Source: Rugalucina vietnamica
Lineage: Eukaryota > Mollusca > Bivalvia > Lucinida > Lucinidae
NCBI GenBank assembly: GCA_964017185.1
Contig: OZ024869.1
Coordinates: 6,842,501 to 6,906,500 of the forward strand
Length of the DNA: 64,000 nt
Reading direction: 5' to 3'
Shown: positions 3,701 through 55,689 of the stretch, one piece after another
How the letters are laid out: each line of letters starts with the position of its first letter
Position numbering within the stretch: position 1 is the first letter of the stretch
Position numbers and translations under genes: made by a program
Notes under the pieces: generated by a model
What the model saw: only the letters and a program-made list of their open reading frames with translations
What the model was told of the DNA's origin: nothing
Database searches by the model: none

Positions 3701-6193
3701 GGAGAATATGGGGGATGAGGAAGGACTTCGAATCCGCATTCAGTCGCATTGTCCTGCAAAAGCAGAACGCCTCAAGTCAATTTTCCTCTCCTCTTTCTTG
3801 CAATTTCCTGGTGCAAACGCCTCAATTCTGCTGCATAATATGCACCATTAATCGTACGACCTTGTTTAAGATAATCAATCATGATTACCCCCTGACTATC
3901 CCAAAAGACTGAGGCCATCACCTTCACTGCCGAAGAAACTCTCTTAAACTTCTTGGGAGGGGTGAGCCAGGGTGCTTCCATTGTTTTTGGTCATCAGTCA
4001 ACATTCTCGGTTTCCATCTTGCCGAGACCTTGGACAAACCCAAGATATCTGTTAGAATTGTTTGCACTGCCCCAAAACTTATGCCCACTTCGCTGGCTAT
4101 ACTTCACAAGTCTCGCCCCCTGTCACAAATAACCAGGTTGTGAACGATCTCCACATTTTCATCAGTGGTGGCATCTTTGGGGCGGCCAGATCTTGCATCA
4201 TCCTCAATGCTCTCTCTCCCAAGCTTAAATTCTGCAGCCCAATTTTTCACTGTGCTATAAGAAGGAGACTCATTCCCAAGTGTTTTCATGAAGTCTTCGT
4301 GAATTTCCTTGGGAGTCTTTCCCTTCTTACAAAGATATTTTATCACCACTCTCACTTCAACTTTCTCCATTTTGCAAGTTTGATGCAGTGTCCTCTCTCA
4401 ATACTGTCGTACAAAAGCAATCAAGCGTGACCAAATGCTTTTTACTCTCCAGATGACTTTCAATTTAATAGGATGACAGACTGAAAAAGAGTTTTGTCTT
4501 ATGGAATGCTTTGAAGTGTATCAGGCTTAGAACTTTCTGATCACACCTCGTAGCAGTAAGATTGTCAGCCTGGTGAAAGTTTCTGATGCATATGTCATTT
4601 TGAAAACTCAATGTTTGGCATTGTAAAAAGAATGTATCATGGTTTGACCAAATGAGGTCATCCTCTTTAATAAAGAACTTGACCAAATGAGTCACTTCAC
4701 TTCACTTCACTTCACTTCACTTCCACTTCCCTTCACTTCACTTACCTACTAACTTTACTTACTTTTACTAACTTACTTATGTTGTGTTGGTAAAATGTAC
4801 TGAATCAAATAGCAATTTTGAAATCTTGAATTCATATTTGGGGCACCCAGTAACATTTTTAAAATCAAAATAAACATCATACATGAAACAATACACCATG
4901 GACAACTATTTACCTATAAACTACTTATCGTGCCAATAAAATCAAAATGGTCCACACGGCAGTTTTATCTGTATTGTTTTGAGCATAATACACTGTAATT
5001 TTTTTCATGAAAATTAATTGGTGTTGGTGAAAACAAATTGATTTGCAGTACCTAACTTAGTTGCCTAGATCATTAAAATGAGCCGCCCCATGAGAGAACT
5101 AACAATCTGCATATGCAAAACCAAAGACCCAGATCAGCTTCGCAGTAACTGCAAAGCTGATCTGCGCCTTTGTTTTTGCTACACGGATAGTACAATTCCT
5201 CTACTTTCTATATCCAAATTTTTCAGCCTCTAGCCAGCTTCCGTGCATGTACAGCTCAGTTTGTGATGGACCTGTTAGGAAACCACATTGCTGGTTTTCT
5301 CATGAAATGGCTCAAATGTGACTTACTCTGATTCCTAGTTTTGCCCTCAATTCATTGACTTGTTCATCTGTGAGTGCCTTGATGTCAGGGTGTTCCACAT
5401 AGAAATTCTTGCTGAATGGCTGATAGTCTATATCAGAGTGATCTATTGGTGGCAGAGGGACTATAATCTGAAACAGAATGTAGAAATTCTTGCTGAATGG
5501 CTGATAGTCTATATCAGAGTGATCTTTTGGTGGCAGAGGGACTATGATCTGAAACAGAACATAGAAATTCTTGCTGAATGGCTGATAGTCTATATCAGAG
5601 TGATCTATTGGTGGCAAAGGGGCTATGATCTGAAACAGAATGTAGAAATTCTTGCTGAATGGCTGATAGTCTATATCAGAGTGATCTATTGGTGGCAAAG
5701 GGACTATGATCTGAAACAGAATGTAGAAATTCTTGCTGAATGGCTGATAGTCTATATCAGAGTGATCTATTGGTGGCAAAGGGGCTATGATCTGAAACAG
5801 AATGTAGAAATTCTTGCTGAATGGCTGATAGTCTATATCAGAGTGATCTATTGGGGGCAAAGGGGCTATGATCTGAAACAGAACATAGAAATTCTTGCTG
5901 AATGGCTGATAGTCTATATCAGAGTGATCTATTGGTGGCAAAGGGACTATGATCTGAAACAGAACGTAGAAATTCTTGCTGAATTGGTGCTAGTCTATAT
6001 CAGAGTGATCTATTGGGGGCAAAGGGACTATGATCTGAAACAGAATGTAGAAATTCTTGCTGAATGGCAGATAGTCTATATCAGAGTGATCTATTGGTGG
6101 CAAAGGGACTATGATCTGAAACAGAACGTAGAAATTCTTGCTGAATGGCTGATAATTATAATACTACTAATAATAATAATAAATAAATAAAGA

Positions 6194-6250
<57 letters not shown>

Positions 6251-9200
6251 CAGAGTGATCTATTGGTGGCAAAGGGACTATGATCTGAAACAGAACATAG
6301 AAATTCTTGCTGAATGGATGATAGTCTATATCAGAGTGATCTATTGGTGGTAAAGGGACTATGATCTGAAACAGAACATAGAAATTCTTGCTGAATGGCT
6401 GATAGTCTATATCAGAGTGATCTTTTGGTGGCAGAGGGACTATGATCTGAAACAGAATGTAGAAATTCTTGCTGAATGGCTGATAGTCTATATCAGAGTG
6501 ATCTATTGGTGGCAAAGGGACTATGATCTGAAACAGAATGTAGAAATTCTTGATGAATGGCTGATAGTCTATATCAGAGTGATCTGTTGGGGGCAAAGGG
6601 ACTATGATCTGAAATAGAATGGAGAAATACTTGCTGAATGGCTGATAGTTTATATCAGAGTGATCTATTGGTGGCAAAGGGACTATGATCTGAAACAGAA
6701 TGTAGAAATTCTTGCTGAATAGCTGATAGTCTATATCAGAGTGATCTTTTGGTGGCAGAGGGACTATGATCTGAAACAGAATGTAGAAATTCTTGCTGAA
6801 TGGCTGATAGTCTATATCAGAGTGATCTTTTGGTGGCAGAGGGACTATGATCTGAAACAGAATGTAGAAATTCTTGCTGAATGGCTGATAGTCTATATCA
6901 GAGTGATCTTTTGGTGGCAGAGGGACTATAATCTGAAACAGAATGGAGAAATTCTTGCTGAATGACTGATAGTCTATATCAGTGATCTTTTGGTGGCAGA
7001 GGGACTATAATCCGAAACAGAATGGAGAAATTCTTGCTGAATGGCTGATAGTCTATATCAGAGTGATCTTTTGATGGTAGAGGGACTATAATCTGAAACA
7101 GAATGGAGAAATTCTTGCTGAATGGCTGATAGTTCTATTGTTGACAAAGGGACTATGAACCGAAATGACAAATTTAGTACACTGCAAAAGTATGATGATT
7201 TGTCAGGTTTTCATGATGGTGTGAATATTTGTGGTATGCAAGTATATAAGCCTAAAATCCATTTTAATGCTGTCAAATTTACAGCGCCTGTAGGCCATAT
7301 TGTGCAAGGGACATCAGACTGTTTTTTTGTGATGTAGTGTAATAATTTATATTCATTCTCCTCCGTGTACCAATAGTATGCCTCTTCTACATTGTGATCA
7401 ATACAAAACAATGTATCATACTGTACAAACCTTATCTTGTTTTGTAAAGATTATATTGCCGTCATTATCGTATTCTACCATGAGATCATCTTGTTCGTCC
7501 TGTAGTACCCCCGCCATTGGGTTCTCCTCCATGTAACGATAGTATGCCTCTTCTACATCTTCCTCTTCAATGTCATCTCGTACACCCCTGGGGATAGATA
7601 AAATGCATTTAAGGAATACCTTCTTCTAACAACCATTGACAAAGGTACACTTAGTAGGGTTACAAAATATGTTTTGAGGGATTTTTTTTTTGGTTAAAAT
7701 ATCTGGCCTGTTTAATTTTGATGTTATAGAATCAATCTGATCTAATTTAGATCAATTTGTCTAGAAACATGGTCCATATGAGTCGCATCATGAGAAAACC
7801 GGATTTTTGCCTATGCAAAAACAAAGGCACACATCAGCTTCGCAGTAACTGCGAATCAGCGACTTTGTTTTCGCAACACGGATAGTACAATCCCTCTTCT
7901 TCTTAAAACCGGAATTTCAATGTTCTAGCCTGCTTCTGTGACTGTACAGGCCGGTTTGTGTCAGACCTGGTCGTAAACCCCGAAGACTGGTTTTCTCGCA
8001 ATAGAGCTCATGGGGATGTGACTTTAATGTCTCTTCTAAAGAACAGGAGAAGCATGAGATCAAACCCACAGTCCAAATCCAAAATGACTTAACCACTACA
8101 CCACAGAGGTTGTATTTTAATATGAACAGCATTCCTCTGGCAAAATCAAACTTTAGAGTAATTCCACAAATTCTTATGATGTCTAAAAATTCAGCAAAAT
8201 TAGATTTATCATTTCTGTATGGCAGGCATGTCTTACTTTTCCTCCTTCTTTTCTTTCACTTTTCCTTTGGCTTTTTCATTTGACGACTCCACATCTTGTC
8301 TCGCTTCTTCCTACAAATCAACCAATTTATTATAGTCTGAAAACTTGCCTCTGATAATGGTTTTTCGCAGAAAATTTTTGTATGGGGGACGACAGAAAAA
8401 ATATTTTCATGTCAAAATCTTGATCTTAAATTTCCTAATAGGACCTAAAAAAATTTTGAAAATTCATGGACAAATAAAGTTTTTATGGCCAAAATGAATT
8501 TTGCAAAGGGATTTTGCATTGGCAAGGGAGATAATCGATGATCGTGAAAATGCATCTTTTTCGAGAATTTTTACCTGATCATGAAGATTTTGTCTCAGGT
8601 GTGTCATTTGTGCCACTTTATAATAATTTTGAGCAATCATGATTAAATATTTAGAATTTAAAATTTTCGCAGGAAAATATTTACCTCTCTTCCATGAGAT
8701 TTTTGTACAGGAAATCCCTATTCAAAAATGTTTTTGACCAGAACTTTTTTTATTTGTCAACCGATTTTCAAAATTTTTGCTGCACATTTTGCGACAAACT
8801 GGATCCTTAAATGTGCCAAGAAAATATTTCTTCCTTATTTGAACAATTGTAAAATATCTGCAAAAAACCATTATCACACACTACGAAACAGACAGTAGAT
8901 TCAATACATGCATTTATGGCAGTACATTGTATAATTAATATTTTGTGATATTTTTGTTGATCTTTGTGTTGTTTACAATCCAGATAAGGTCTGATATTTT
9001 GACAGGTCTCAATCAAAATTGTTAGGTGTTCATTTTGTCTTTGTTGTTGCTTTGTTTGCTCATTAGAATCAACTGGACAGGGCAGTTTAATTGACAACAA
9101 ACAGTTTACATGTATCTAGCAAAACATACTAAACTAAAATATCAATAATCAAGCACATGTATGCACAATTTATCTTTGTGTTAATTCAAACAACTTTTTT

Positions 9201-10528
9201 AAGAAATATGCTATTTGATCACCAACCTCTATTTCGGCCATGAAAGCATCTAGAGGGTCTTCCCCATCAGATTCATCTTTGGTTTGTTCCTGTTGTCCCG
9301 GGCTACCAGGGGCGGGCTGGTACTCACACGCATTGTCATCATTATCATCAAAATAACTGAAAGAACAAGATTACACATGCAGCTAAATGGAGCAGAAAAA
9401 AATAATTCATACAACTACACCTGGACCTCTTTATAACATGGTTCATTACAACACGGTTTGGGATATAACAGTGATCACTGATGGACCCAAATTGAACTGT
9501 TTTGCTATATGTCCACACATTTTACTCTCAAATAACACCGATTGGATAGCTAACACGGAAATTGGCTTGTACCCAAGTAATAGTGTTATAAAGAGGTTGA
9601 TGTGTATAATAAATAGCCTGTCAAAAAAATATGAGCCACATCACGAGAATGAGCTACGCCATGAGAAAATTAATTATGCAAAAACAAAGGCGTAGATCAG
9701 CTTCGCAGTTACTGCTGAGCTGATCAGCACCTTTGCTTTCACTGCATGGATAGTACAATTCTTTTACCTTCTTAATCCAAAATTTCAAGCTTCTAGCCAT
9801 CTTCTGTGACTGTACAGACCAGTTTGTGTCAGACCTGTTCGAAAACTAAATTGTTGGTTTTCTCATGACGTGGCTCATATGATTTTTTGGGTTGATTCAT
9901 GGTTCTGCAAAGGTACAACATTAGCAAGGCTGCTACAAATAAGCCTCATCATGAGAAAACCAACAATCTGCATATGCCAAAGCAAAGATGCAAATCAGCG
10001 CCTTTGTTTTCACTACTGGGATAGTACAATTCCTCTACTTTCTAAATCCAAAATTTCCAGCCTCTAGCCATCTTCTGTGCTTGTACAGCTTGGTTTGTGT
10101 CCACCTCTTTGGAAACCACAATGTTGGTTTTCTCATGATGCAGCTCAAATGCTAGCTAGAGGTATGTATATGGATATTGACATGTTGATCTGTTTTGACA
10201 AATCTAACAGATCAGACTTTGGGCTATTTGATTAGAGTCTAAATGTTTACCATTCCAACTGCATCATTTGACCTAACTCCTCTATGGCACTACTTTTTTA
10301 CTTACATTATAGCATAATTACAACAAACATTAATGTGTACAAAAAATGAGCATTTACTATAAAAACTCACTCATCTTCATCATTGACCCTCTTTCTGCCG
10401 ATGTTGAGGTGATATCCAAATGATCGTCCTGGCATTGACTTTTTACTGCTTCCGCTTCCTTCACTCTTTATTGAAAATCCACCAAACCCGAATCCTCGAG
10501 GGTTGCCATCACCTCCTTTATGATACAT
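662..10528 (-). CDS. DDX42: DDX42 DEAD-box RNA helicase, 5' half (seven coding exons, continues off left edge)
   Basis: Seven exons on the minus strand join without a frame error into 296 codons: 10528-10371, 9356-9227, 8310-8237, 7587-7431, 5467-5327, 1542-1423 and 769-662. All introns are GT-AG. The start ATG at 10528 opens [18 protein letters not shown], matching the glycine-rich N-terminus of vertebrate DDX42. Next come an acidic stretch, the conserved [15 protein letters not shown] block, the Q-motif region ([15 protein letters not shown]) and Walker A (AKTGSGKT) in the last exon. DDX42 is an ATP-dependent RNA helicase tied to the U2 snRNP/SF3b complex in the nucleus; this role comes from the family. 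The DEAD box, motif III and the C-terminal domain lie beyond base 1. Introns carry a LINE tail, a mariner, several inverted-repeat elements and the 81-bp array at exon 5. DDX46/Prp5 was considered, but the N-terminus and the spacing to the Q motif fit DDX42. Confidence 0.93.
904..1140 (+). mobile_element. GAGCC-type short inverted-repeat element (MITE), copy 1
   Basis: This is a non-coding element of about 237 bp. It begins TGAGCCGCCTCATGGGAAAACC and ends with the complement (GGTTTTCCAATGAGGTGGCTCA). An internal palindrome GATCAGCTTCGCGGTAACC lies about 55 bases in. Thirteen more full or partial copies occur in this window. Its size, terminal inverted repeats and lack of coding content fit a MITE. 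Confidence 0.85.
1423..1542 (-). CDS. DDX42: DDX42 Q-motif exon
   Basis: The 120-bp, phase-0 exon encodes VSG, then [12 protein letters not shown], and ends SSPTPIQAQ, which is the aromatic and Q-motif region of a DEAD-box helicase. The acceptor is TTTTTCCAG. A second AG, six bases further in (TTTCAG), would break the frame, so the upstream one is chosen. The donor is GTATTA. Confidence 0.92.
2668..3426 (-). mobile_element. LINE 3' fragment (CR1/L2-like reverse transcriptase C-terminus)
   Basis: An open frame at 2998-3426 encodes the end of a non-LTR retrotransposon polyprotein, recognisable by [22 protein letters not shown], the usual C-terminal signature of these proteins. It is followed by an untranslated tail of about 330 bases ending in a TTA/ATT microsatellite at 2668-2686, typical of CR1/L2-like 3' ends. 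No reverse transcriptase core is present, so this is a 5'-truncated dead copy. It sits in DDX42 intron 5. Confidence 0.75.
3430..4550 (-). mobile_element. Mariner-family DNA transposon with intact terminal repeats
   Basis: This 1,121-bp element is bounded by TA dinucleotides (3428-3429 and 4551-4552). It has 28-bp terminal inverted repeats beginning CGAGGTGTGATCAG, with one mismatch between the two ends. TA target duplication and size are standard for Tc1/mariner. The transposase inside is broken (separate entry). It is inserted in DDX42 intron 5, beside a LINE fragment. Confidence 0.93.
3496..4370 (-). pseudogene. Mariner transposase pseudogene
   Basis: Three blocks on the minus strand make up a mariner transposase. 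An N-terminal helix-turn-helix block (4370-4104) begins [14 protein letters not shown] central block contains [13 protein letters not shown] with the first catalytic Asp. A C-terminal block contains LLLQDNA with the second Asp and [19 protein letters not shown] with the third, giving the DD34D layout. The frame is broken by a TGA at about 4104, a frameshift near 3975 and a second TGA near 3772. It cannot make active enzyme, although all three acidic residues can still be read. Confidence 0.88.
4690..4765. repeat. (CACTT)n microsatellite
   Basis: An imperfect pentanucleotide run of CACTT units that decays into CTTACTAA-like sequence on its right. Confidence 0.9.
5079..5315 (+). mobile_element. 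GAGCC-type MITE, copy 2 (ends 6 bp from the DDX42 exon 5 donor)
   Basis: This copy has the same ends and internal palindrome as the one at 904-1140. It stops at CTCA around 5314, and the DDX42 exon 5 donor (GTAAGT, read on the minus strand) occupies 5326-5321. The element therefore starts almost at the intron's first bases. Confidence 0.85.
5327..5467 (-). CDS. DDX42: DDX42 exon 5, whose acceptor and first 67 bases are tandemly amplified
   Basis: The 141-bp exon (47 codons, phase 0 at both ends) has acceptor ACATTCTGTTTCAG and donor GTAAGT at 5326-5321. It encodes [20 protein letters not shown] and then [20 protein letters not shown], as in vertebrate DDX42. The first 67 bases plus the 14 bases ahead of them are the unit of the array at 5401-7165. 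Only this copy continues into the rest of the exon, so it must be the last acceptor. Whether it is the acceptor normally used cannot be told from sequence. Confidence 0.92.
5401..7165 (-). repeat. 81-bp tandem array of 3' splice site plus start of DDX42 exon 5
   Basis: The unit is 81 bp. Read on the minus strand it is ACATTCTGTTTCAG followed by 67 bases coding for [25 protein letters not shown] acceptor trinucleotides fall at 5468 (the genuine exon), 5549, 5630, 5711, 5792, 5873, 5954, 6035 and 6116, then at 6285 and every 81 bp to 6933, and at 7093. The unit at 7012 has CGG in place of CAG. One unit is displaced by an ATT microsatellite (6186-6250). The DDX42 frame is open through nearly all units; the unit at about 5990 has an in-frame TAG. 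The array ends in a decayed partial unit near 7165. Confidence 0.95.
6186..6250. repeat. (ATT)n microsatellite inside the DDX42 exon array
   Basis: About 18 ATT units follow an AATAATAATAAATAAATAAA lead-in and replace part of one 81-bp unit, leaving 169 bp between neighbouring acceptors instead of 162. Confidence 0.92.
7351..7395 (-). pseudogene. Partial duplicate of DDX42 exon 4 in the following intron
   Basis: On the minus strand this reads [12 protein letters not shown], a near copy of [12 protein letters not shown] from the exon at 7431-7587. It lies about 160 bp downstream of the original. No complete splice sites flank it, so it is an exon fragment rather than an alternative exon. Confidence 0.75.
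7431..7587 (-). CDS. DDX42: DDX42 exon with RDDIEEED motif
   Basis: The 157-bp exon (acceptor TCTATCCCCAG, donor GTTTGT) encodes [19 protein letters not shown] and continues to EYDNDGN, closely matching vertebrate DDX42. A 40-bp degenerate copy of its middle lies in the downstream intron at about 7351-7395. Confidence 0.92.
7779..8010 (+). mobile_element. GAGCC-type MITE, copy 3
   Basis: A diverged copy beginning TGAGTCGCATCATGAGAAAACC and ending AATAGAGCTCA. Its internal palindrome is partly lost. It lies in DDX42 intron 3. Confidence 0.75.
8012..8113 (-). mobile_element. tRNA-derived SINE-like fragment
   Basis: Read on the minus strand, CCTCTGTGGTGTAGTGGTTAAG resembles a tRNA A-box region, and GGGTTTGATCTC about 25 bases later resembles a B box. 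It cannot fold as a functional tRNA, and no RNA polymerase III terminator is evident. It is most likely a decayed SINE head. Confidence 0.5.
8237..8310 (-). CDS. DDX42: DDX42 charged-linker exon
   Basis: The 74-bp exon (acceptor TTTGTAG, donor GTAAGA) encodes a Lys/Glu-rich linker that ends in a split Lys codon, completed by the first base of the next exon. Its sequence is weakly conserved; phase and position support it. Confidence 0.85.
8311..9226. other. DDX42 intron 2: no recognisable feature
   Basis: AT-rich intron sequence with no open frame supported by homology and no clear repeat apart from short AAATTTT runs. Confidence 0.6.
9227..9356 (-). CDS. DDX42: DDX42 acidic-region exon
   Basis: The 130-bp exon has acceptor TTCTTTCAG and donor GTTGGT. 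It encodes a Tyr-Phe-Asp-Asp acidic stretch and ends [14 protein letters not shown], matching the DDPLEAFMAEVE block of vertebrate DDX42. Confidence 0.9.
9649..9877 (+). mobile_element. GAGCC-type MITE, copy 4
   Basis: Begins TGAGCTACGCCATGAGAAAA and ends ATGACGTGGCTCA. A stray partial end (ATGAGCCACATCACGAGAA) sits just before it at 9631. It lies in DDX42 intron 1 (between coding exons 1 and 2). Confidence 0.8.
9941..10147 (+). mobile_element. GAGCC-type MITE, copy 5
   Basis: Begins AAGCCTCATCATGAGAAAACC and ends CTCATGATGCAGCTCA. The central palindrome is half deleted (AAATCAGCGCCTTTG). It lies about 65 bp after copy 4. Confidence 0.8.
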
Positions 10529-10535
10529 CGTGATT
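10371..10535 (-). CDS. DDX42: DDX42 exon with start codon
   Basis: The coding part runs from ATG at 10528 to 10371, followed by donor GTGAGT. It ends in phase 2; the first base of the next exon completes an Asp codon. Two possible acceptors (CAGCAG at 10541-10536) lie just upstream of the ATG, so this is probably not the first exon and a 5' UTR exon is expected at higher coordinates. I could not identify that exon. Confidence 0.88.
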
Positions 10536-10804
10536 CTGCTGACAGAAAATTAATGGTCTGAAGACTAATACCCTAAAATTTCATTATTTAAATGTTAAAC
10601 AGTGTAGACCTAAAGAGTTGGTTTTCTCATAAAAGCTAGAAGAAAAAAAAAAGCACCTGCCATTCTCTTCATATGACCTTACTTTTACAGGACATCAAAT
10701 TTATGAAAAAAGAACTTGATTTTTACACAAAATAAATTCATCAAAAAGAATGATTAAACTATCAAATCAACTGAAAAAATAATAAATATCTTTTTCTTTG
10801 TACC

Positions 10805-10925
10805 GAGTCAAATTCTGACCATTACCCTAGGAGATGTGAAAATGTGACTTGCTCAAGGCCACAACAAAATGTGCCCTGAATGAGGATCAAACCCTGGACC
10901 TCTCAGATGACAGTCCTCTACTCTT
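10805..10925 (-). mobile_element. SINE-like fragment
   Basis: On the minus strand, GAGGTCCAGGGTTTGATCC is a B-box-like motif. It is followed by TTGTGGCCTTGAGCAAGTCAC, a motif I associate with conserved SINE bodies of many invertebrates. No terminal duplications were found. Confidence 0.45.
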
Positions 10926-10989
10926 TCTTTCTTTGTTACTTTATATACTGCAACACCCCCTCATGAGGATAATAGGCAGGTGGACTGCA

Positions 10990-12160
10990 TCTTAAAGCCA
11001 TGGTACATAAAGTTTGCTTGCTTGTTTGGTTGTTTAATGACGCGTCAACCCTGATGAGTCATTATCGTCTAACGAGGTAAAATGTTAAAATATATTGAAA
11101 TCATAGTGTATGAAAAAAGAATAAAATCAGACTGCTCCATTCAATGAAAAAAAATGAACAGAAAATGGTTGAGCAGAGTTAACACAATCGCCAATATCCT
11201 GAATCTATCCCCCAGGGGAATCTAAAATAAAATGAAGATAAAAATGTTAATTTCTGCACTATATTTGGATGAACTGGTTCATCTAGATGCTTGATTATTT
11301 TCTTTCTTATGATTAACGAAGCAATCTGAATGTATTGTAACTTTAGGAGAGGCTATGAAGTTCAATTATAAAATGTGTATGGAATAAAATCAGGAATAAA
11401 CAACACATACAACTCTTTTACATATATGCATGTAATTTACAGAATAAGCTGCATAATAGAAATGCTGCTTATTCCGTGAATGTATTAATAGATTCAAAAT
11501 ATCACTGCTTATAGTTTTTGTCATGTAGATCTACAATGTACCATGTACGTTTAAATAAAAATATCTCATAAATTTAATTTTCATTCCATGTACAAATTTC
11601 CCACTATACATTCTTTCCCCTGTACATTTCATCCCCTATAAAATTTTGTCTATATCTTTTAATACCCCAAAAGAAAACCATGCCCCTTTTCTCTATGGCA
11701 AGGATCCCCAAAGAAGATCCTTTTAAGATACTCGGGGGATACCTTAGTTGTGAAACACATGCGTTTGTGAGATTATTTACCTTTCAGACGGTAAATTAAA
11801 AGCACATTTAACAAATTATATATACAGTTGAGTCTCATGGAGTTGCGCGGCACATGGACTTGCGCATCTCTTGGTTTCTTGTCTCAGGACTAACGCATGA
11901 TAGTTTACATTTGTTTGTTTGTAACATTTTGCCAGTAAACTTCGTTAAATGATCCAAAGATGAAAAATATCAAAGATGGGTCAGAAAAAATGGAGAAAAT
12001 TATGTAAAACGGACTTGCCAGTCATTTTGTTTACCTAGTTTATTGTATCGTCCAAATTAAATATGCATGGGGCTGCTTTAATCATTTTTTTCTGGCTTAT
12101 CAACTAGAAACATGACAAACTTCCCAAAACATTTGTTTAAATACCATATCTCTTGAGGAA
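10990..12160. other. Intergenic or 5' UTR intron, no gene seen
   Basis: AT-rich DNA with no supported coding frame. If DDX42 has an upstream 5' UTR exon, this would be intron. Confidence 0.5.
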
Positions 12161-12501
12161 AACCCCCTAATGGCGTCAAATATATCAAGTGCGCAACTTC
12201 ATGTGACCTTTGACGTCGGGGATAAACATGGGGGTATCTTTACTTATGCTGAAATTCTGAGAAAAGTTTTTGACATTTTCATAATTTCTGTCGGTAGTTG
12301 TATGCATTACATGTTCGTGCAAAAAGGGGATTATTTGTTTTATTCAGACATGGCTTCTATGATAATCTACAAGGTCAAAAAATGCTTAGGTGCGCAACTC
12401 CAGGGGACAGCATCGTACATGAATCTACTATTACACCCTGTAAATTGCATGAGCCTCAGTCCATCAGAAAGCATTTGCTTAACCTTTTTGTTGATGCGAG
12501 A

Positions 12502-12574
12502 TAAATCGTCAGACAGTCAGCATCAATGTCCCAATATATAAATCGTCAGACAGTCAGCATCAATGTCCCAATAT
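12502..12574 (+). repeat. 37-bp tandem duplication
   Basis: ATAAATCGTCAGACAGTCAG followed by CATCAATGTCCCAATAT occurs twice in a row with no visible change, suggesting a recent duplication. Confidence 0.85.
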
Positions 12575-12899
12575 CAACGTCGACTGCCACATGAATTATG
12601 TTATAGATCTAGTGCCTAAACCTGAAGTGGTGATCAGAAATTGATCTACTCAGTATCAGAATATAGATAAATGACCCAGGTAATGTATTCTTGCGCGTTT
12701 GTATATATATGTTTTTTAATGCTCTGAGAAATGATCCCCTAAATTGATTTTAGGGGATAGATTCAGAATATTGTCACACAATAACCGTCACCAGCCCGCC
12801 ATGAGGATTCACTCCTCTGCTTTTCGTTGTGGACCTTGGTGGTTCTATTTGATCAAAACAATTGTCATTGAATAAAACAGGATTACACATGGTTGACAC

Positions 12900-13045
12900 G
12901 TGGTGATTGCATCCGAACTCGACCTTGTTGATGTCATGGGAGTGCTTTGACGTCACGGCACGCGCTTTGTCACATGAGCATGGAGAGCTTCTTTCTGATT
13001 GGCTTAGCGTCGCGTAGAAAAGTGAGAGCAAATGAGCTAGCTGAA
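12900..13045. promoter_or_regulatory. Candidate promoter region with a CRE palindrome
   Basis: TGACGTCA at 12948-12955 is a perfect CREB/ATF site, in a local patch of higher CpG content (CACGGCACGCG, TAGCGTCGCG). It lies about 2.4 kb upstream of the DDX42 ATG and could hold its transcription start. This rests on motif and composition only. Confidence 0.3.
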
Positions 13046-13439
13046 TGTGTAAATCTCACAGAAATTATGGATTTTAAGCAGGAAATCAGAGACTTTTCTT
13101 GTGGAACATCACCTGGAGAGACAATTTAATATCTCTGTGAACAGTATGCGAAGTGGGGGTGAGCTGGATTTAGTTTTTCACAGTGAATTTCGGGTTTCAA
13201 AATTTGATGTGTAAAGTAAAACTTTTTTTGAACGGTTAGTACATGCTTGGCACTGAGGCTGTATGACACATTCGGAATGCTTTTGTGTAAACATGCATGG
13301 AGATTGTAAATAACAGCTGAAGGTCTGAGTCTAGCCATGAGGATAGCCTTAGTCAATTATTTTTTTTACATCAATACAAAGCTGCAAGAGGTGACTTTGT
13401 TAATAGAGCACCATTTTTCGTATATTATTAGGCTTCTTT

Positions 13440-13685
13440 CAGATACCTTCAGCTAGCAAAGAAGCGTACAAAAGTAGTTTCTTTCCACAGACTATCAGGG
13501 ACTGGAATGACCTCCCTGATTCACTTGTCTCCTCTGCTGAAATGTCTGATGACTGTGTGTCCAAGTTCGCTTCACTCGTGCGTTCAAGGGACTAATTTCC
13601 CCCCCCCCCCCCCCCCCCCCATCCGAACCCCCTGGTGAAATAATGTCATTTGGCGTGTCACCAGTAAACTATTCAGATTCAGATT
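13440..13685 (+). mobile_element. LINE 3' end fragment with C-run
   Basis: An open frame ends TIRDWNDLPDSLVSSAEMSD and closes at the TAA of GGGACTAA, a non-LTR polyprotein C-terminus. A run of about 22 C (13599-13620) and a 3' tail ending in AGATTCAGATTC repeats follow. The same end, without the long C-run, occurs at 40192-40370. Confidence 0.75.
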
Positions 13686-13894
13686 CTGTGAAAAAAGCAA
13701 GTTTAGACAGGTTCCTTATTCATGCCATAGGGAAGTCTGAATCTTTAACCAACCTTTCTGTTTGGTAAAGAATTGGTATTTTCTGTCAAAATTATGGGGG
13801 TTTTGTTGATAATTTTATGGCATACTTGTATGAATAAAATTTTGACACGTCGTTTCAAAGAAAGCTTGAGCATTTGGTTTCGGGTCATCTCAAT

Positions 13895-15105: not shown

Positions 15106-15109
15106 TGTT

Positions 15110-17520: not shown

Positions 17521-17740
17521 ATGTGCATCTTTCTCTTTCTGACATCGGTTTAGAACCAATTTTGCAGCCTGACAAATATGCATCTGAAACCACCGAACGT
17601 GCACATCTTTCTCTTTCTGACATCGGTTTAGAGCCAATTTTGCAGCCTGACAAACATGCATCCGAAACCACCGAACGTGCACATCTTTCTCATTCTGACA
17701 TCGGTTTAGAGCCAATTTTGCAGCATGACAATGCATGCAT
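17521..17740 (+). repeat. 78-bp coding-like tandem repeat, about 2.7 units
   Basis: A 26-codon unit containing HLSLSDIGLEPILQPDK and SETTERA repeats in frame. The last unit is diverged. The frame continues to 17903 without a recognisable domain. Confidence 0.8.
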
Positions 17741-20975: not shown

Positions 20976-20980
20976 CTATC

Positions 20981-22735: not shown

Positions 22736-22742
22736 AAAAATA

Positions 22743-24074: not shown

Positions 24075-24079
24075 AGAAT

Positions 24080-24640
24080 TTACAGGTGATATTTGATCTT
24101 TGTTGTGAAAGGATTACTTTTAAAAGGCCCAAGAATTGATTTGTTTTCAGCCTCTTTCTCTAAATATTCTAACATAGAATCAGGAAATTCTGTTGCTCCA
24201 GAGTGATTTCTATGTTTCCATAAATTTTTTCGATCACCTATTTCCAAAATATCATCATTTCCAATATAACCGATTGGAAAGCCAAATTCCAACAAATCAC
24301 ATATTTCTATATCCTTATAATCTGATAATGCTTTTCTCAAATATTCAAAATCCATTCTAAAATTCACTTTGATTTTACAACTCTGATAATTGAATTTTCC
24401 AGAAGCTAAAACTTTCTCATGAGCATCTAAAAAATATTCCATTGTATTTTGACTTATATGTTTTTTAGTAAATTTGCACACATCACATTTGTTGGAATGC
24501 TTACAAATACAAGTTGTATGATCTTTAAAGTGTTCCTTATTAAGCTCTTTTTCACAAAATTTGGGAAAAAATATATTAACTAACTCATTCTGATGATCAT
24601 CAACTGTAAAAATTTTAACTACTTTTTCCCTAGACCGAAG
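24080..24640 (-). CDS. N-terminal pol region, in frame with gag but behind a TGA
   Basis: From the codon after the gag TGA (24643-24641) the same frame stays open for 186 codons. It holds a Cys-rich motif (CICKHSNKCDVCKF) and ends NPFTTKIKYHL and a stop. The expected continuation of the RT (ISPVNSVPKKD) is in another frame beginning about 10 bases earlier. One base appears to be missing in the ACAACAAAG run near 24095. This is either decay or recoding. Confidence 0.75.
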   Translation of the reverse strand, partial: LRSREKVVKIFTVDDHQNELVNIFFPKFCEKELNKEHFKDHTTCICKHSNKCDVCKFTKKHISQNTMEYFLDAHEKVLASGKFNYQSCKIKVNFRMDFEYLRKALSDYKDIEICDLLEFGFPIGYIGNDDILEIGDRKNLWKHRNHSGATEFPDSMLEYLEKEAENKSILGPFKSNPFTTKIKYHL

Positions 24641-26029
24641 TCAAGCGTTAAGATGTGGGCATGCGGTAGAACTTTCTGGATGATCTAATTTTTTCTTGTC
24701 CTTTAACCAGCAAGATGCACAAATGTGCAAAGCCAATCTTTGCTCCCCTTTAACTACTTTTAGATGATTAGATTTGTGACTGCATTTATTGCGTTGATAT
24801 TCCCCACAAAACCATACCTTTTCAGCTTTTTCATCAGATTTTGCATGATAATTTGCCTTTCGTGTTTGCTGATAATCTTTCCCTTTCAACAAATATTTGT
24901 TAAGCAATGCACTTTCTAAATAAGAAGGGTCATCTGACCAGGTTTTTCGACCTCTTTCAATATCTCTTACGAATGCTGCATAATACGCCTTAAGCCCTTT
25001 AAATTCGTACATTGAACAATAATATACGATTTTCTTTAGAAAATCTATTCGGCCTTGTTTTTCAACCTGCGATATATCATCCTCGGAAATGATCCCAAGC
25101 TCACCTGCTATGAACTGTTTCATATCTAAATCATCATATTTCAATTGCTTACTAACAAATTCAAATTGCAAGTAAGCTTGAGGCCATCGCTGAGGATGCT
25201 TTACCCTGTCAGCTGCCTTCGCATTTATGCCAGATTTAACTTTCTTCTTCTTTTTCTTCTTCTTACTATCATCACTATCTCTATCAGACTTTTCTGATTC
25301 AAAATAACTGCTATTTGACTCTGAGTCTACTGGGTTTGAGTCTTCAACCTCGTCATTTAAAGCAAATTGCTTCATAAGCTTATGAACCTTAGCTTTTAAA
25401 TGTTTATTCTTCCTTAAATTATCAATCGTTATGATTTCGTCACCGTCACTTTCATCTTTCACAGATTGTTCAGTCAAAGGAGGCACAGGAGGCACAGTTT
25501 TTGATTTACCTCTTAAAGTTTTGACTTTCTGTTGCTTAGCCTTCAGTTCTTCTCTCATTTCCTGTAACTTCTTGGATTTACTAAGACGTCTTTCTTCGTC
25601 ATCCAACTGCTTCATTTGTTCCTTAATCAAACCCATTTCTTCATCAATGTCACTTTCATTTTCAACCGGAAGTGACCCTGTTTTTGGTTTGGTTCCCGTC
25701 ATTGGTGTCTTAGCTAGTGACTCAGCCACCGTGAGTTTGGCTGCACCAGCACCACTGGAACTTGTTCCCGCCTTAGGAGTAACCACAGATTTACTACTCG
25801 CCCCCTTGAGACTACCACTGGAACCTGTCCCTGCCAAAGGAGTGGCCGCTGACTTGCCACCCGAAATACCACCCTTAGGAGAACCGTCCTTTGAAGACTT
25901 GTTTTCACTAGTTTTTGAGGATTTCTTATCAGAGTTCCCAGCCACCAGAGACTCGACACTCCCCTGTAGTCCTTCTTTGTCCATGACTCTGTAATTTAAT
26001 TTGACTTTGCTCTTTCGAGCTTTGGACAT
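24641..26029 (-). CDS. Gag-like protein of the Ngaro-like element
   Basis: A 462-codon frame from ATG at 26029 (MSKARKSKVKLNYRVM). It has a Ser/Gly/Lys-rich N-terminal third, a charged coiled-coil-like stretch (about residues 145-200, EEERR/KSKK), an acidic Ser-rich patch followed by a Lys-8 run, and a folded domain around WPQAYLQFEFVSKQL. A C-terminal Cys/His cluster (WFCGEYQRNKCSHKSNH, then HICASCW and CPH) is typical of DIRS-class gag zinc-binding ends. The frame is open further upstream, but only from non-ATG codons. Confidence 0.82.
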   Translation of the reverse strand: MSKARKSKVKLNYRVMDKEGLQGSVESLVAGNSDKKSSKTSENKSSKDGSPKGGISGGKSAATPLAGTGSSGSLKGASSKSVVTPKAGTSSSGAGAAKLTVAESLAKTPMTGTKPKTGSLPVENESDIDEEMGLIKEQMKQLDDEERRLSKSKKLQEMREELKAKQQKVKTLRGKSKTVPPVPPLTEQSVKDESDGDEIITIDNLRKNKHLKAKVHKLMKQFALNDEVEDSNPVDSESNSSYFESEKSDRDSDDSKKKKKKKKVKSGINAKAADRVKHPQRWPQAYLQFEFVSKQLKYDDLDMKQFIAGELGIISEDDISQVEKQGRIDFLKKIVYYCSMYEFKGLKAYYAAFVRDIERGRKTWSDDPSYLESALLNKYLLKGKDYQQTRKANYHAKSDEKAEKVWFCGEYQRNKCSHKSNHLKVVKGEQRLALHICASCWLKDKKKLDHPESSTACPHLNA

Positions 26030-26346
26030 TGACAGAACTTTGAAAGTTTGAGTAAAGGTATAACTCAAAAGTACAATAATAAGAACTGAGAGTTTGTGAG
26101 AGCACAACTCAAAGGTACAAAAAGAGTTTGTATGAAAGCACAACTCGAAGAAAACGAAAGTTCAGTGCATCAGCTGATCAACACACCACGTGTCGAGTCA
26201 TAAACAACTAGAATTTCATTTTAAATGACTTCTGAAGAATGACAGTTATTGGTAATAACTAAAACGTCAATAAAGATTCGCTCCCAGTTCAAAAGCGATG
26301 TCCTCTCTTAAATAACGAGGAAAAAACACTCAGAAAAAGTCTTTTT

Positions 26347-26604
26347 CAAAATCTTGACTTCCACTCTTGAGTAAAACGAAAAACTGTGAAGAAAAGGCGC
26401 GAAGGATTCCGAATATGCTCAACTTTAACCAATGAAAACTCTTGTAAATAAATCAACCAATCGCAAAGTTTGTTAGAAAACTTGCGACAAATTTGTGTGC
26501 CAAGAAACCGAAGCCGAATCCTTTAGCGTAAAACTGTGTACTTTAAAAACGAAATCGAGTTCAGTCCCATAATTAAATATTTTTAGAATAAAAATAATCC
26601 AATT
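26347..26604 (-). repeat. Ngaro-like split repeat A1
   Basis: The 5' end of the element, a copy of A2 at 19893-20150, with the AATT core at 26601-26604 abutting the right flank. Confidence 0.92.
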
Positions 26605-26720
26605 TCAGAATGATTCGTCGCCGTATACTCAGTTCCTACTGTATCGCGGTAGCTTCTGAATCGCGGCATTTGCATATCACGTGAATTTTCTAGCCTGTTC
26701 TTCAGGGGTGGATTCAGGAT
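26601..26720 (-). repeat. Right flank of the Ngaro-like insertion (segment d)
   Basis: 120 bp, matching 27445-27564 with one visible mismatch (GTATCGCGG/GTATTGCGG). It contains the last codons of the open frame at 26677-26997. Confidence 0.9.
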
Positions 26721-26997
26721 CCTCATTTTGTTCTCGATCAAAATCAACAACGTCAAATTCTGACCCTATCACCGGTTGTTCTGTCCCTGACCTTGCACTC
26801 AATCCGGAGGCGCCCGAGGGGTTTTCAAGGAGGGGTTCCCCAAAATCGACTTCAGTCCCAATCTCATCAACATTCACCTTCTGTTGTTTCGCATCCTTCG
26901 AAATTTGACTTTCTCCGTCACTCATCTTCTTATAATCGATCTTCTTACGATTACGTAAAGATCGAACTTCACTTCTAGAGTCTAGCTCTTTGTTCAT
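26677..26997 (-). CDS. Second, unrelated gag-like open frame (106 codons)
   Basis: ATG at 26997 opens MNKELDSRSEVRSLRNRKK. The body is acidic (VDEIGTEVDFGE, DVVDFDREQNEDPES) and ends EEQARKFT. Its length, charge pattern and position next to an A-like terminus at about 27300-27361 suggest the start of another retroelement's gag. No zinc motif is present. Confidence 0.4.
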   Translation of the reverse strand: MNKELDSRSEVRSLRNRKKIDYKKMSDGESQISKDAKQQKVNVDEIGTEVDFGEPLLENPSGASGLSARSGTEQPVIGSEFDVVDFDREQNEDPESTPEEQARKFT

Positions 26998-27049
26998 CGA
27001 AGAATTTACCCGGGATTTATGCCATTACAAAATCCCAAAATGTCCCCCA

Positions 27050-27361
27050 CAAATTAAATGTACATGAATGATAAAAATAGAACGGCCACAGTGGAGATCG
27101 AAGGGAATTTCTCTTTAAACAAACGAGAAGAAAGATCGACAAAGATTGTCAATATTTTATAAGACGAGAACTTCACTTTTCAACGGCCGTCTTCGTCGAA
27201 AGATTTTCAAACTGTGCCGAAAAGTTGACAACAAAGGAAATTTTAGCCAATAAATTTTTAGTACTAAAAATAGATATAGACACAGTCGAACGAGATACCG
27301 AAAGGCAAAAAGGAGTCAATTCGTCTCCATAATTAAATATTTTTATTTGTTAAAAATCTTC
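27050..27361 (-). repeat. A-like terminus of a second Ngaro-type family
   Basis: On the minus strand the end reads AAAAATATTTAATTATGGAG followed by ACGAATTGACTCC. The A1 end of the full element reads AAAAATATTTAATTATGGGA and then CTGAACTC in the same position. Similarity is confined to the outer ~60 bp, so this is a related but distinct family. Confidence 0.4.
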
Positions 27362-27564
27362 CAACGGTACAAATAATCATCCCTGATTGCCTATAGATAA
27401 ATTTGGGAAATCGTTCTTTTAAAAATTAAAGTGATTAAATTGTAAATTTCAGAATGATTCGTCGCCGTATACTCAGTTCCTACTGTATTGCGGTAGCTTC
27501 TGAATCGCGGCATTTGCATATCACGTGAATTTTCTAGCCTGTTCTTCAGGGGTGGATTCAGGAT
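27362..27564 (-). repeat. Uninterrupted b-d copy: the empty target site of the Ngaro-like insertion
   Basis: 27362-27448 equals segment b (18978-19064) and 27445-27564 equals segment d (26601-26720). They are joined here through the same AATT that borders the retrotransposon. This is the sequence expected before insertion. Confidence 0.88.
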
Positions 27565-27571
27565 TTCTGAA

Positions 27572-28189
27572 CAGGCTCAGGACAAATCAAAATTTAGCTA
27601 CAGAGCTCGATTTAGCTATAGTAGCTAAAAGGAGCTTTAAAAATTGTGTATATTTCATATATGTTTTAATAAACTTTAACATTGTGAAAAAATTGCAGGC
27701 AAATACTCGATTAAAATTGTTAACAACTTTAAATATTTTGTGTAAACAACATTTTTCTGAAAATCCAGAGAAGAAATTTCTGCAAAAAACACCATTTCTG
27801 TTTATTGCAGAAAATGAGAATTCATAAAACCCCAATCAACAGTTAGATATGCTATCATATTTTTTTCTGCTGCATAAATTGTGTTCTGTGTTTGGCATTC
27901 CATTTTTTTTTTTTGCAATGACTGCCACAATGAGGTATTTTATAACATCTCATTTCCTGCAATTATAAAATGAAGTTTTTGCAAAAAAGTCTTGGCTGGA
28001 TTTTCTCAAATTTGATGTTTACACAACCAATACAAAGTAGTTAACATTTTTTATTAATCATTTACTTGCAATTTTTTCAATGAGTCTTTATTATGATATA
28101 TATATGAAATATACACAATTTTAAAGCTCCTTTTAGCTACTATAGCTAAATCGAGCTCTGTAGCTAAATTTTGATTTGTCCTGAGCCTG
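27572..28189. mobile_element. Hairpin (foldback) element with 5-bp target duplication
   Basis: 618 bp flanked by CTGAA on both sides (27567-27571 and 28190-28194). The arms begin CAGGCTCAGGACAAATCAAA and match perfectly for about 70 bases. Weaker complementarity continues to the centre. It has no coding capacity and is probably mobilised by a transposase elsewhere. Confidence 0.88.
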
Positions 28190-28494
28190 CTGAAGCGGGG
28201 GTTCAAATCTGGAAAAGGGGTTCGTTAACTTCGTTTGCCTAAATTGTTTTGCAGAAATTCCCCATCTAAAAAAAATAATATGGGCCCACTGGCCCAGTGG
28301 GTGGTTCGATCGAACCCCTTGAAGCCCCTCTAAATCTGCCACTGAGAACACCCTACATTCAACATCTTTTGTGGCAAACGTCAAGACCGTATAATGCCTT
28401 GCCTCAGCTGCCATATTTGGAGCAACTTTCATCCTGTAGCTGTTGCTTGTGATGTTTATTGGCTGTAATCTGTAATGGTTAGAATCCGTCAAAG

Positions 28495-29365
28495 GAGTAA
28501 AACATTCAAAGGGATGTGTTCCTTTACCGGAATGTGCCTAATTACTGGAATGGTATTGAAATCCGGTGCGTTCCTTTACCAGAATGGACTACCGAAATGG
28601 ACATTTATATGTGTCCTTGAGTATTTTTTTTCATTTGGTCTTTTAGGACAAATTTGTCTAGGATGTACACAGACAGGGTTTAGTTCGAGAATCGTGTAGT
28701 TTAAGTACAGTTAAAGTGTGTTCCGTACGATGGGGTAGCCTGGGTCAGGGACCCATATATTCTTATAGGTCACTGTCACAGTGCCAGCACATTTTACTCA
28801 TTTCTACTTCTATTCACCCCTGTTTTGGTGTAGAACATACACTGGTGATTTCTATACATTTTAATCATATAAACTTCTGAATAGTGATCCCATCCCGGAC
28901 ATCACCACTGGGCTACCCTAACCACACTGGGAAGTCAATTTTGCTATACTAAGATGAAATTTATTTTATACAAACTATTTTTATGACTCCAGAAATACAT
29001 TTCATGCAGACAAAATACATTTAAAGCACCCAAAGCCACAGTATAATGTCCATTCCGGTAGTCCGTTCCGGTAATTATGTCCATTCCGGTAAAGGAACAC
29101 ACCCATTGAAATCAAATGAGTAAAAGGTGTTCGCTCTGTGACTATGATCCAAGCGTACATGTGCATTCCCGTTAGGCTTCTATCCCATCATATAGAACAC
29201 AATTTTGCGGTACCTAAGCCACACAGTTCTCGGACTAATTAGAGTCTGTGCATATTCCAGGCCACCCTTTAAAGACTAAATAAAAGGTAACCCAGGACAC
29301 ATATAAATGTCCATTCCAGTAGTCCATTCAGGCAATCATGCTCATTCCGGTAAAGGAATGCACCA
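28495..29365. repeat. Inverted clusters of CCATTCCGGTA-type motifs
   Basis: 28500-28605 carries several TTACCGGAATG/TACCAGAATGGACTACCG copies. 29048-29105 and 29311-29365 carry the inverted form (CCATTCCGGTAGTCCGTTCC). The first and second clusters could be the ends of one ~600-bp element, with the third cluster a neighbour. Confidence 0.6.
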
Positions 29366-29625
29366 CATTCAATTGGACAAGGTGGTTCATGCTGTACAAT
29401 TGTGGGTAATTAACCCTCATCAATTGACCTTTTACAAACTGGCTATGAAAGCCAGGCACTTGTACTGCAAAAGCCTGCAATTTCAAGCATTTACATCAGT
29501 CTGGATTCTGGATAGTCTTATTCAAGGTCTCATATACTGATCAAAATACTTTTAAGAAGTTGTAAACATTTTATCTTTTTGTCAACCTTTAATGCTTGGA
29601 AGACAATAACCTGTCTTTTTCATGC

Positions 29626-29760
29626 ACAGTGGAGTGGTAAGTTAATGTATCAGACTTCAGGCTGAGGGATCCTTGGTTCAATCCTTGGCCAGGACTTAGT
29701 CTGTAGTAGCGTAAACCTTTAAGCAAGACACTATATCGCAGCTCAATGTGTACTTGTTTA
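29626..29760 (+). mobile_element. tRNA-derived SINE-like fragment
   Basis: GGAGTGGTAAGTTAATG resembles an A box and GGTTCAATCC at 29675-29684 a B box. TTAAGCAAGACACT follows. The tRNA fold is not conserved. Confidence 0.5.
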
Positions 29761-29867
29761 TAATGTTCCTTATAGAAGATGTAGCAATAAAAGCTCCACA
29801 GACTGAGAGCTTATGTTAGTTATAATATGCACTTCTTTTGAAATCTTGAAAAACATCATTTTTGCAG

Positions 29868-30035
29868 GAGAATACCATTGACAATTTAATAATGTTTCAG
29901 CCTGTACTTGTGACAACTGCAAGCTCTGGTAGTTTAGACACTGATACCATTCCTGTGGATACAGAAGAATCACGAGACAGTCCAGTTATCACATACACGG
30001 ACAAGATACCAGTCTTTAAAGATCCTAAGTTTGTG
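29868..30035 (+). CDS. INO80C: INO80C exon 1 (coding)
   Basis: Acceptor-like TTTTTGCAG ends at 29867. ATG at 29892 gives MFQPVLVTTASSGS, resembling the PIVATTSTPG start region of vertebrate INO80C. The donor is GTACAT at 30036. A second AG (TTTCAG at 29900) lies inside and would remove the ATG. Confidence 0.82.
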
Positions 30036-33000
30036 GTACATAGATTAATAGTACATGTATAATTATTCCTTGTCTTGCACATTTCTTTCATGCAGATTTG
30101 ATCATGTAAATATTTCTACAGCCATTTTTTTCAGTTCTGCTGATTCAAGTCTTTAAGAAGAGCATTTGTCAGTTAGTGTAGAAAGAAATGTTCACTAAGT
30201 ACTGGTAATCTACCTCGGGAAGGTTTACTCTTGAACAGTGTTGCTTGGATAACTTGCATCTCAACATGACCTTAGCTGTTCATAAACTTCTAATTCAAAC
30301 AAAACATAGCTTCATGATAACATGTCTGACGATTGTCTGTGCAGTGTATACCCCCCTTACACCCAACTTTTTTTTTATCAAAACCGGGGTGTGCAGGGGT
30401 TTTCATTTTTCTGACCGAGGCACTTCTGACATGTATCCACAATGTATTTTGAACTATGTTCTGAGCAAACAACAAGAAAACTATCATTTTTCAACAATAT
30501 CATTTTTAGTTCTGGACAGAAATGCTATGTATTTGCATAGGTATGTTTTCATAATACATTGAACATTATTTGAGCCTCCTCATGAGAAAACCAACAATCT
30601 GCATATGCGAAAACAAAGACGCAGATCAGCTTCGCGGTAACCGCGAAGCTGATCAGCGCCTTTGTTTTCGCTACATGGATAGTACGCAAGATTCTAGCTC
30701 TTTTCTGTGCTTGTACAGGCAAGTTTATATCAGACCTGTTCAAAAACCACATTGTTGGTTTTCCCACGAGGCGGTTCATTTTTCAGCATTCCAATCAAGG
30801 TACAACTGGTAACATCATTTTTCAGCATTCCAATCAAGGTACAGCTGGTAACATCATTTTTCAGCATTCCAATCAAGGTACAGCTGGTAACATCATTTTT
30901 CAGCATTCCAATCAAGGTACAACTGGTAACATCATTTTTCAGGATTCCAATCAAGGTACAACTGGTAACATCATTTTTCAGCATTCCAATCAAGGTACAG
31001 CTGGTAACATCATTTTTCAGCATTCCAATCAAGGTACAGCTGGTAACATTATTTTTCAGCATTCCAATCAAGGTACAGCTGGTAACATCATTTTTCAGGA
31101 TTCCAATCAAGGTACAACTGGTAACATCATTTTTCAGCATTCCAATCAAGGTACAGCTGGTAACATTATTTTTCAGCATTCCAATCAAGGTACAGCTGGT
31201 AACATCATTTTTCAGCATTCCAATCAAGGTACAGCTGGTAACATTATTTTTCAGCATTCCAATCAAGGTACAGCTGGTAACATTATTTTTCAGCATTCCA
31301 ATCAAGGTACAGCTGGTAACATTATTTTTCAGCATTCCAATCAAGGTACAGCTGGTAACATTATTTTTCAGCATTCCAATCAAGGTACAGCTGGTAACAT
31401 TATTTTTCAGCATTCCAATCAAGGTACAGCTGGTAACATTATTTTTCAGCATTCCAATCAAGGTACAGCTGGTAACATTATTTTTCAGCATTCCAATCAA
31501 GGTACAGCTGGTAACAAGAGAACTAGAACTTGGAAGAACTTGAAACAAATCATAGCTGCCGAGAGGTCATTACCTTGGCAACCAGAAGATGTAACATGTA
31601 AGTCAAGGGGAAGGAATACCTTCAAATCAGTACACATAAAGTTTTGTTCAACCAATGCTGACCTAGCTAATGTTATTTCTTTCTGTTATATGTATCAAAA
31701 AGCTGTCATGTTTGAATAAGAAATATTTTTATTAAGGTACTGTCCCCGCATTTTCTCCTTCTTGTCTCTCCTAGTTAGTTGCCTCTTCTATGTTATGAAG
31801 AATGAAGAGTGATTTGTTTGTTTGAATTGATGTTTAACGTCCCAGTCAACAGCTGTGGTCATGTTATGATGACTTGAAATTTTGGATTTAAGAAGAAGAG
31901 GGCTTGTACTATCAGATCTGTGTAGCGAAAACAAAGACACTGATCAGCTGCTATCTAGTTTTGCCTATGCAGACTTGGTTTTCTGATGTGGCGGCTCTAA
32001 TTCTACATTTCAGATGGTATGATAGATGCTCCTCCTTCATTCAAACCTGCTATGAAATATTCTGACCTCTCAGGACTTTCCGTAAGTACAATATACAGTT
32101 GACAAAGCTTAACATGAAAGAAATTGCCAATTACACCTCAACTTCTCGATAACTTGGTTCCTTGTAAACTAAAAGGTTTTGGCTACTTTTAGCTATTTCC
32201 TCTTATTTAAAGGCTTTATAATCAAAAGATAACGCAAAACTTAAACAGAAATGTCAAATATTATGTAATATTCAATATTTAAATGTTCTGAAAAAAAGAG
32301 GGTACCACCTTCTGGAGTCCAAAAGGACAGGGTGCATTTCCCATTTTCAAAATGAGGGCAGGGTGCTCTCCCCTCTAACACCCTTCTAGCTCTACCACTG
32401 GCAAGTCTATTCTGACCTGGAGGTTGTAAAACTTTTTTCATGCTCAACTCGGCTAAGCATTGAAATTTAAAGAGCTCATACATTAGTCTGTGTGAGAAAG
32501 GTGCAGATCAGCTGTGCAGAAACTGCACTGTTGATCAGCACTTTTATTTTGCTATATGTTAAGTACAATTCCTTTTTATCTTAAATCTGAAATTTCAAGC
32601 TTCTATACATCTTCCAAGGTTGCACAGGCTGATTATTGTCAGACATGGACAGAAATTTGGTTCTGACTTCATTTCGTGGCTCATAGAATCAAAGTTCAGT
32701 GTAGTACACTGACATGTTGCTGTACACTGACGTCATCATTATCATATGAGCCGGGTCGCAAGAAAACCAGTTTTTTGCCTATGCGAAAATGAAGGCGCAG
32801 ATCAGCTTAGCAGTGACTGCGAAGCCGATCAGCGCCTTTGTTTTCGCTAAACGGATAGAGCGATTCCTCTTCTTCCTAAATCCGAAATTTCAAGCTTCCA
32901 GCTGTCTTCTGTGACTGCGCAGACCGGTTTGTGTCAGACCGGGTTGGAAACCCGGAGGACTGGTTTTCTTGGGTCACAGCTCATATATATCTGTTTATTA

Positions 33001-55686: not shown

Positions 55687-55689
55687 AAT

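Follow-up and report, generated by a model that had tools for sequence, protein, structure and literature searches.

Tandem arrays built on exon-intron boundaries recur in conserved genes of the lucinid bivalve Rugalucina vietnamica. In a 64,000-nucleotide stretch of its genome (assembly GCA_964017185.1, contig OZ024869.1, positions 6,842,501 to 6,906,500; referred to here as the window), two arrays repeat the 3′ splice site of the exon that they adjoin, one at a DDX42-like gene (array 1) and one at an INO80C-like gene (array 2). We put at roughly 80% the probability that both are minisatellites founded on exon-intron boundaries, bivalve counterparts of the amphioxus arrays known as mirages, and tolerated via the one splice site that remains joined to the exon. 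The best reading of their origin is ordinary growth of minisatellites, tandem arrays being plentiful in this genome (assembled as 1.09 Gb in 47 contigs), with founding on an edge by chance or through a modest preference. A first-pass annotation of the window had described the two arrays as lying 24 kb apart on opposite strands, with unrelated units of 81 and 39 bp, both multiples of three; Tandem Repeats Finder (TRF) and tables of the individual units confirmed this description. The arrays and their exons are located as follows.

5400..7138, minus strand: array 1, 81-bp tandem units (TRF and unit table)
5327..5467, minus strand: DDX42-like exon, its 3′ splice site being the site repeated in array 1 (phmmer against PDB and splice edges)
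6152..6250, no strand: ATA/ATT microsatellite within unit −10 of array 1, making that unit 169 nt long and breaking its frame (TRF and unit table)
30776..31516, plus strand: array 2, 39-bp tandem units, 19 copies (TRF and unit table)
31489..31597, plus strand: INO80C-like exon, its 3′ splice site being the site repeated in array 2 (phmmer against PDB and splice edges)

Array 1 was called with a period of 81, 21.4 copies, and 89% matches (TRF span, 5400-7138), and a degenerate partial copy extends it to ~7168. Its unit consists of the acceptor CTGTTTCAG and ~68 leading nucleotides of the DDX42 exon. The unit table holds 21 units, the most distal degenerate and partial, and the acceptor AG is kept in 19 of the 21. 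The exon entered by the last unit matches DDX42 (PDB 8hk1_E; phmmer E = 5.1e-18) and has canonical splice sites. Array 2 is more regular (period 39; 19.0 copies; 98% matches; TRF span, 30776-31516): its unit is TTTTTCAG followed by ~28 leading nucleotides of the INO80C exon, TTTTTCAG is present in all 19 units, and each unit is exactly 39 bp long. The exon entered by its last unit, which reads HSNQGTAGNKRTRTWKNLKQIIAAERSLPW..., matches INO80C (PDB 7zi4_Q; phmmer E = 5.7e-24), again with canonical splice sites. When the four INO80C exons of the window were joined and translated, the closest named matches were bivalves (Potamilus, 80% identity; Mercenaria, 74%; Ruditapes, 75%; ~82% of the query). 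COX1 was less informative on the host: its top match, an unnamed record, reached 88%, and insects, a chiton, Panopea, and other animals followed at 66-70%. Judged by eye, variants are unevenly distributed along both arrays. In array 1, one variant of the exon unit recurs only in units −18 to −20, and another recurs in units −2, −12, and −16 to −20 and is absent from most middle units; in array 2, seven adjacent identical units lie beside the exon unit, and the distal units are mixed.

Exons of DDX42, INO80C, and an adenylate cyclase gene (ADCY) were mapped in the window and 100 kb of flanking sequence, with human sequences as probes. The third gene enters the window at its far end.

60573..61538, plus strand: first large open frame of the ADCY gene; its five donor-edge duplications (below) lie in later exons, ~1.4-43 kb beyond the window end

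Of 36 mapped exons, ADCY exons F, G, and H were excluded (edges unclear), and neither the first DDX42 match nor the large ADCY open frame of the window was used as an exon. The resulting 33 exons contributed 33 acceptors and 28 donors, 61 edges in all, and copies crossing an edge were sought within 1.5 kb on either side. Tandem copies crossed 7 of the 61 edges: 2/33 acceptors (DDX42 and INO80C) and 5/28 donors, all in ADCY (Fisher P = 0.23 for acceptors versus donors). A doubtful eighth edge, the donor of DDX42 exon 14, where a lone 44-bp match (75%) lies at +289, was left out of the seven. Within ADCY, duplicated edges were found at 5/11 mapped donors and 0/13 mapped acceptors. One of the five donors has 8 copies, irregularly spaced at 88-241 bp; the other four have 18 copies spaced 52 bp, 1 copy at 197 bp, 18 copies spaced 22 bp, and 1 copy at 129 bp. 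At exon B, the donor is followed by 18 near-copies of the 52-bp unit, and GT is intact in 18/19 units. Two of the ADCY loci are given below; further ones lie at exons D, E, and K.

L053:1278-2300 (C1:6907778): ADCY donor-edge array
L054:5761-6735 (C1:6922261): ADCY donor-edge array

Given these five ADCY donors, donors are affected as well as acceptors. The earlier suggestion of a process seeded specifically at acceptors is therefore not supported, while its broader claim of a recurring process is: in addition to the seven mapped edges, two cases came to light elsewhere in the genome. One is an edge array at a CFAP221 acceptor, its units 56 and 37 bp long, reached through a genome-wide pattern of triple TTTTCAG (14 array loci inspected), and the other is an edge array with a 53-bp unit at a CNOT7 donor, reached through triple GGTAAGT (4 flanks examined). 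These two cases yield no rate, because splice motifs led to them. Flank proteins were named with a Pfam scan of 10 peptides, chosen by eye from 218 flank open reading frames and then trimmed or extended; 4 of the 10 had matches, namely two of three ADCY pieces, a dipeptidase, and a PapD-like piece identified as CFAP221 through PDB. The array at the dipeptidase, an alpha-aspartyl dipeptidase (51 bp, 2.1 copies), was dropped as an edge array because homology spans both copies and the duplication is seemingly internal to an exon. For a sample blind to arrays, 16 of 51 DEAD-box matches were picked by hand with ~120 bp of flank, apparent dispersed copies being passed over. A degenerate edge copy was present at 1/16 of these exons (locus L071; upstream, and identified partly by eye), which does not differ from the 7/33 exons of the mapped genes (Fisher P = 0.25).

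Could the arrays be false expansions of a simple duplication made during assembly? We consider this extremely unlikely. A precedent for the concern exists, since PMC3902484 names assembly error as one possibility for repeats in the amphioxus gene PGBD5, and array 2, with its seven identical adjacent units, is less safe in this respect. Array 1 argues against such an artifact: its copies are separable by private substitutions, and one contains a microsatellite. The copies at ADCY exons D and K and at L071 are likewise diverged.

The first-pass annotation had further proposed that duplication is seeded at acceptors and that arrays survive only when their units are whole codons, through occasional exonization of the copies. 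Both window arrays fit this model in unit length and in lying on the acceptor side, and one reading frame is open across all 19 copies of array 2. This openness says little, however, because other frames are open as well (two on the plus strand and one on the minus strand in all). Array 1 carries a TAG stop in unit −8, the microsatellite-broken unit −10, and a 79-nt unit −19, and therefore an open product could come only from acceptors nearer the exon than unit −8. The distinct variants in its exon part (12 nonsynonymous, 4 synonymous, and 1 stop) occur in a ratio close to neutral (expected fractions of 0.75, 0.22, and 0.02), and the copies of array 1 show no sign of coding constraint. Across the edge arrays, unit length was divisible by three in 3/9 (81, 39, and 129 bp); the others had units of 56, 52, 22, 197, and 53 bp or, in one ADCY array, were irregular (L071, whose unit length is unclear, was kept out of this tally). 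Whole-codon units made up 14/43 tandem arrays in a 164-kb region. Divisibility by three was seen at 2/3 acceptors versus 1/6 donors, a difference in the direction of the model and indistinguishable at this size (Fisher P = 0.23), and 4/5 of the ADCY spacings are not multiples of three. Thus the whole-codon rule fails in this small sample, 3/9 being the chance value, and neither unit lengths, stops, frameshifts, nor the ratio of nonsynonymous to synonymous variants gave a sign that copies are kept as coding sequence. With five of the seven mapped-gene arrays at donors, units of 56 and 37 bp at the CFAP221 acceptor, and the acceptor word not enriched in arrays genome-wide (units of 27-57 bp; below), we regard acceptor seeding with an in-frame survival filter as improbable.

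The splice words themselves were counted in arrays genome-wide. Acceptor-like TTTTCAG arrays with units of 27-57 bp showed no excess over a reversed control (569+480 versus 524+607). The donor word GGTAAGT was in excess (1566+1639 versus 408+479); we do not count this excess toward splice-site seeding, because among the GGTAAGT matches listed, all from the initial 35 Mb of a single contig, about two thirds belong to one dispersed GGTAAGTAGACC... family (for example, C1:2685583, C1:12772107, and C1:22747547). A separate locus, L038 (C1:26186663-26189027), holds ~44-bp repeats in which TTCAG and GGTAAGT alternate along one long array; from its motifs, each junction there could be read as both an acceptor and a donor.

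Coverage by large arrays did not single out exon edges. Arrays of at least seven copies covered 5/61 edges, 11/239 exon-interior points, and 224/1500 random intronic points (a figure that also counts the intronic portions of the edge arrays), giving no excess at the 61 edges over random intronic points. Only these counts were compared, because a control admitting arrays of at least one copy was too permissive (503/1500 intronic points versus 8/61 edges).

Several results weigh against ordinary minisatellite growth that meets exon edges by chance. Among 11 large arrays (at least seven copies) in the three gene spans, 5 were founded on an edge, against an expectation of 0.75-0.98 (Poisson P = 0.001-0.003). 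Without the two window arrays that prompted the analysis, the count was 3/9 (expected, 0.66-0.87; P = 0.03-0.06), and with dispersed families removed as well it was 3/6 (expected, 0.31-0.41). In this founding-unit test, one further cluster near −10 kb was excluded, the figure of 80 edges was a guess, and two lines used totals that were later corrected to 28 donors, 33 acceptors, and 33 exons. In addition, copies of array 1 differ less in the acceptor 9-mer than in their exon part (0.0065 versus 0.029 changes per site; few changes). The founding-unit excess hints at an edge preference beyond plain chance, and it is possible, if somewhat doubtful, that junctions at both ends of exons start tandem duplication or let arrays persist. 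The edge arrays found at CFAP221 and CNOT7 through motif searches are consistent with such a preference. Set against it, the three nonprompting edge-founded arrays all belong to one gene, ADCY; large arrays are no denser at edges than at intronic points; and the DEAD-box sample did not differ from the mapped genes. We retain ordinary minisatellite growth as the best reading, with founding on edges by chance or with a modest preference.

Both window exons also lie beside copies of an abundant element, a ~240-bp inverted repeat resembling a miniature inverted-repeat transposable element (MITE), of which 70 segments occur in the 164-kb region.

5079..5319, no strand: MITE-like copy 7 bp from the DDX42 exon donor
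30563..30781, no strand: MITE-like copy abutting the distal end of array 2
903-1146, 37253-37485, and 55451-55690, no strand: MITE-like copies in the window; besides these five, the 164-kb region holds 65 further segments

That the arrays belong to, or were seeded by, this element is suggested by its position next to array 2 and next to the DDX42 donor. With 70 segments in 164 kb, such neighbors are common. A blastn search with the element found no MITE-like sequence inside the arrays, and a bordering copy was present at 0/5 ADCY edge arrays: copies lie ~0.3 kb past A, ~0.6 kb past K, and ~5 kb past E, and the introns after B and D contain none. Because the ADCY edge arrays have no bordering copy, seeding by the element is not supported, and we judge it very unlikely.

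As an observation in its own right, copies of the MITE-like element occur near splice sites in excess of expectation. A copy lay within 40 bp of 7/61 edges, compared with 2.0% of 20,000 random points. Observed counts also exceeded those from shuffles of the elements within their own introns: 6/52 edges had a copy within 40 bp, where the shuffles averaged 1.9 (P = 0.007), and 11/52 had one within 100 bp, where they averaged 4.9 (P = 0.001); these comparisons are post hoc and concern one region. This proximity above the shuffle is why we compared the element with introners (PMC9860276), elements that constitute whole introns. Unlike introners, the MITE-like elements here (at most ~245 bp) sit within longer introns of 416-9850 bp. 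The main text of PMC9860276 has no occurrence of "mollus-," "bivalve," or "MITE."

The closest known counterpart is found in amphioxus. The first-pass annotation knew of no named class for such arrays, but one already has a name: PMC3087553 and PMC3902484 describe mirages, in which an intron-exon boundary is copied in tandem in the manner of a minisatellite, in the amphioxus genes Adh3, TnC, BflGb6, BflGb9, and PGBD5. As described there, mirages affect both boundary types (PMC3087553) with units from tens of base pairs to ~160 bp (10-72 bp in Adh3 and 150-160 bp in the globins; PMC3087553), many copies keep splice signals and regular splicing is reported (PMC3087553, PMC3902484), and interior units are homogenized while border units are unlike them (PMC3087553). 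Length polymorphism and somatic instability are reported for the Adh mirages, and for the PGBD5 repeats, where assembly error was a named possibility, resequencing argued against it (PMC3902484). The arrays in R. vietnamica resemble mirages in three respects: the unit spans the intron-exon boundary, including the splice signal; units are of minisatellite size (81 and 39 bp, with spacings of 22-241 bp at the other mapped edges); and both boundary types are affected, at the acceptor and donor frequencies given above. They differ in their host, a bivalve and not a cephalochordate, and in copy numbers that reach 19-21. In the literature searched, no such arrays were reported in molluscs, and the arrays called mirages there are from amphioxus only.

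Two further systems are related. In human segmental duplications, minisatellites have expanded at exon-intron boundaries and are able to alter splicing and form introns (PMC2812944); that case concerns copy-number differences between recent paralogs, whereas the genes here are conserved bivalve genes. In a potato RNA-dependent RNA polymerase (RdRp) gene, an intron was gained via tandem duplication across an acceptor boundary, which brought a ready-made 3′ splice site (PMC4974935); there a single duplication was involved and the new intron was detected, whereas here there are many copies.

We infer the following order of events. A short tandem duplication, arising by slippage or end-joining repair, would happen to span a splice site, and slippage or unequal exchange would then amplify the duplicated segment into the intron. 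Selection would keep acting on the exon-joined unit while the others drift and homogenize. Splicing would pick the exon-joined site by position, and the gene would still function because the site used is the one beside the real exon body. For INO80C there is an alternative, in which the gene would still function because even a decoy acceptor would yield an in-frame product. At ADCY exon B, the wrong choice of donor would shift the frame by one 52-bp unit.

The recurrence of edge arrays in conserved mollusc genes suggests a phenomenon wider than one lineage, one that may simply follow from a minisatellite-rich genome. Each array also amounts to a natural experiment, in which the true splice site stands beside up to 20 near-copies and would be chosen by position. 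New introns could arise from such arrays, a route proposed for the amphioxus globins and reported for the potato gene. A more far-reaching interpretation, which we consider rather unlikely, is that a process still active across bivalve genomes favors donor and acceptor edges as starting points of arrays, irrespective of frame, and is either convergent with that of amphioxus or shared with it. If true, ready splice sites from which introns could be gained would be in standing supply, and the arrays would show in a natural setting how the spliceosome chooses among 20 near-identical sites.

Other repeats were seen within apparent coding sequence. In the C1:6963351 region (window-extended coordinates 120851-120956), a 51-bp in-frame tandem duplication apparently lies within an exon of the alpha-aspartyl dipeptidase gene, and at window positions 17526-17740 a 78-bp tandem repeat of 2.7 copies lies in a long open frame of a protein. 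Finally, the mitochondrial contig of the assembly (G000:C47) is 30.7 kb long, which is large for an animal.

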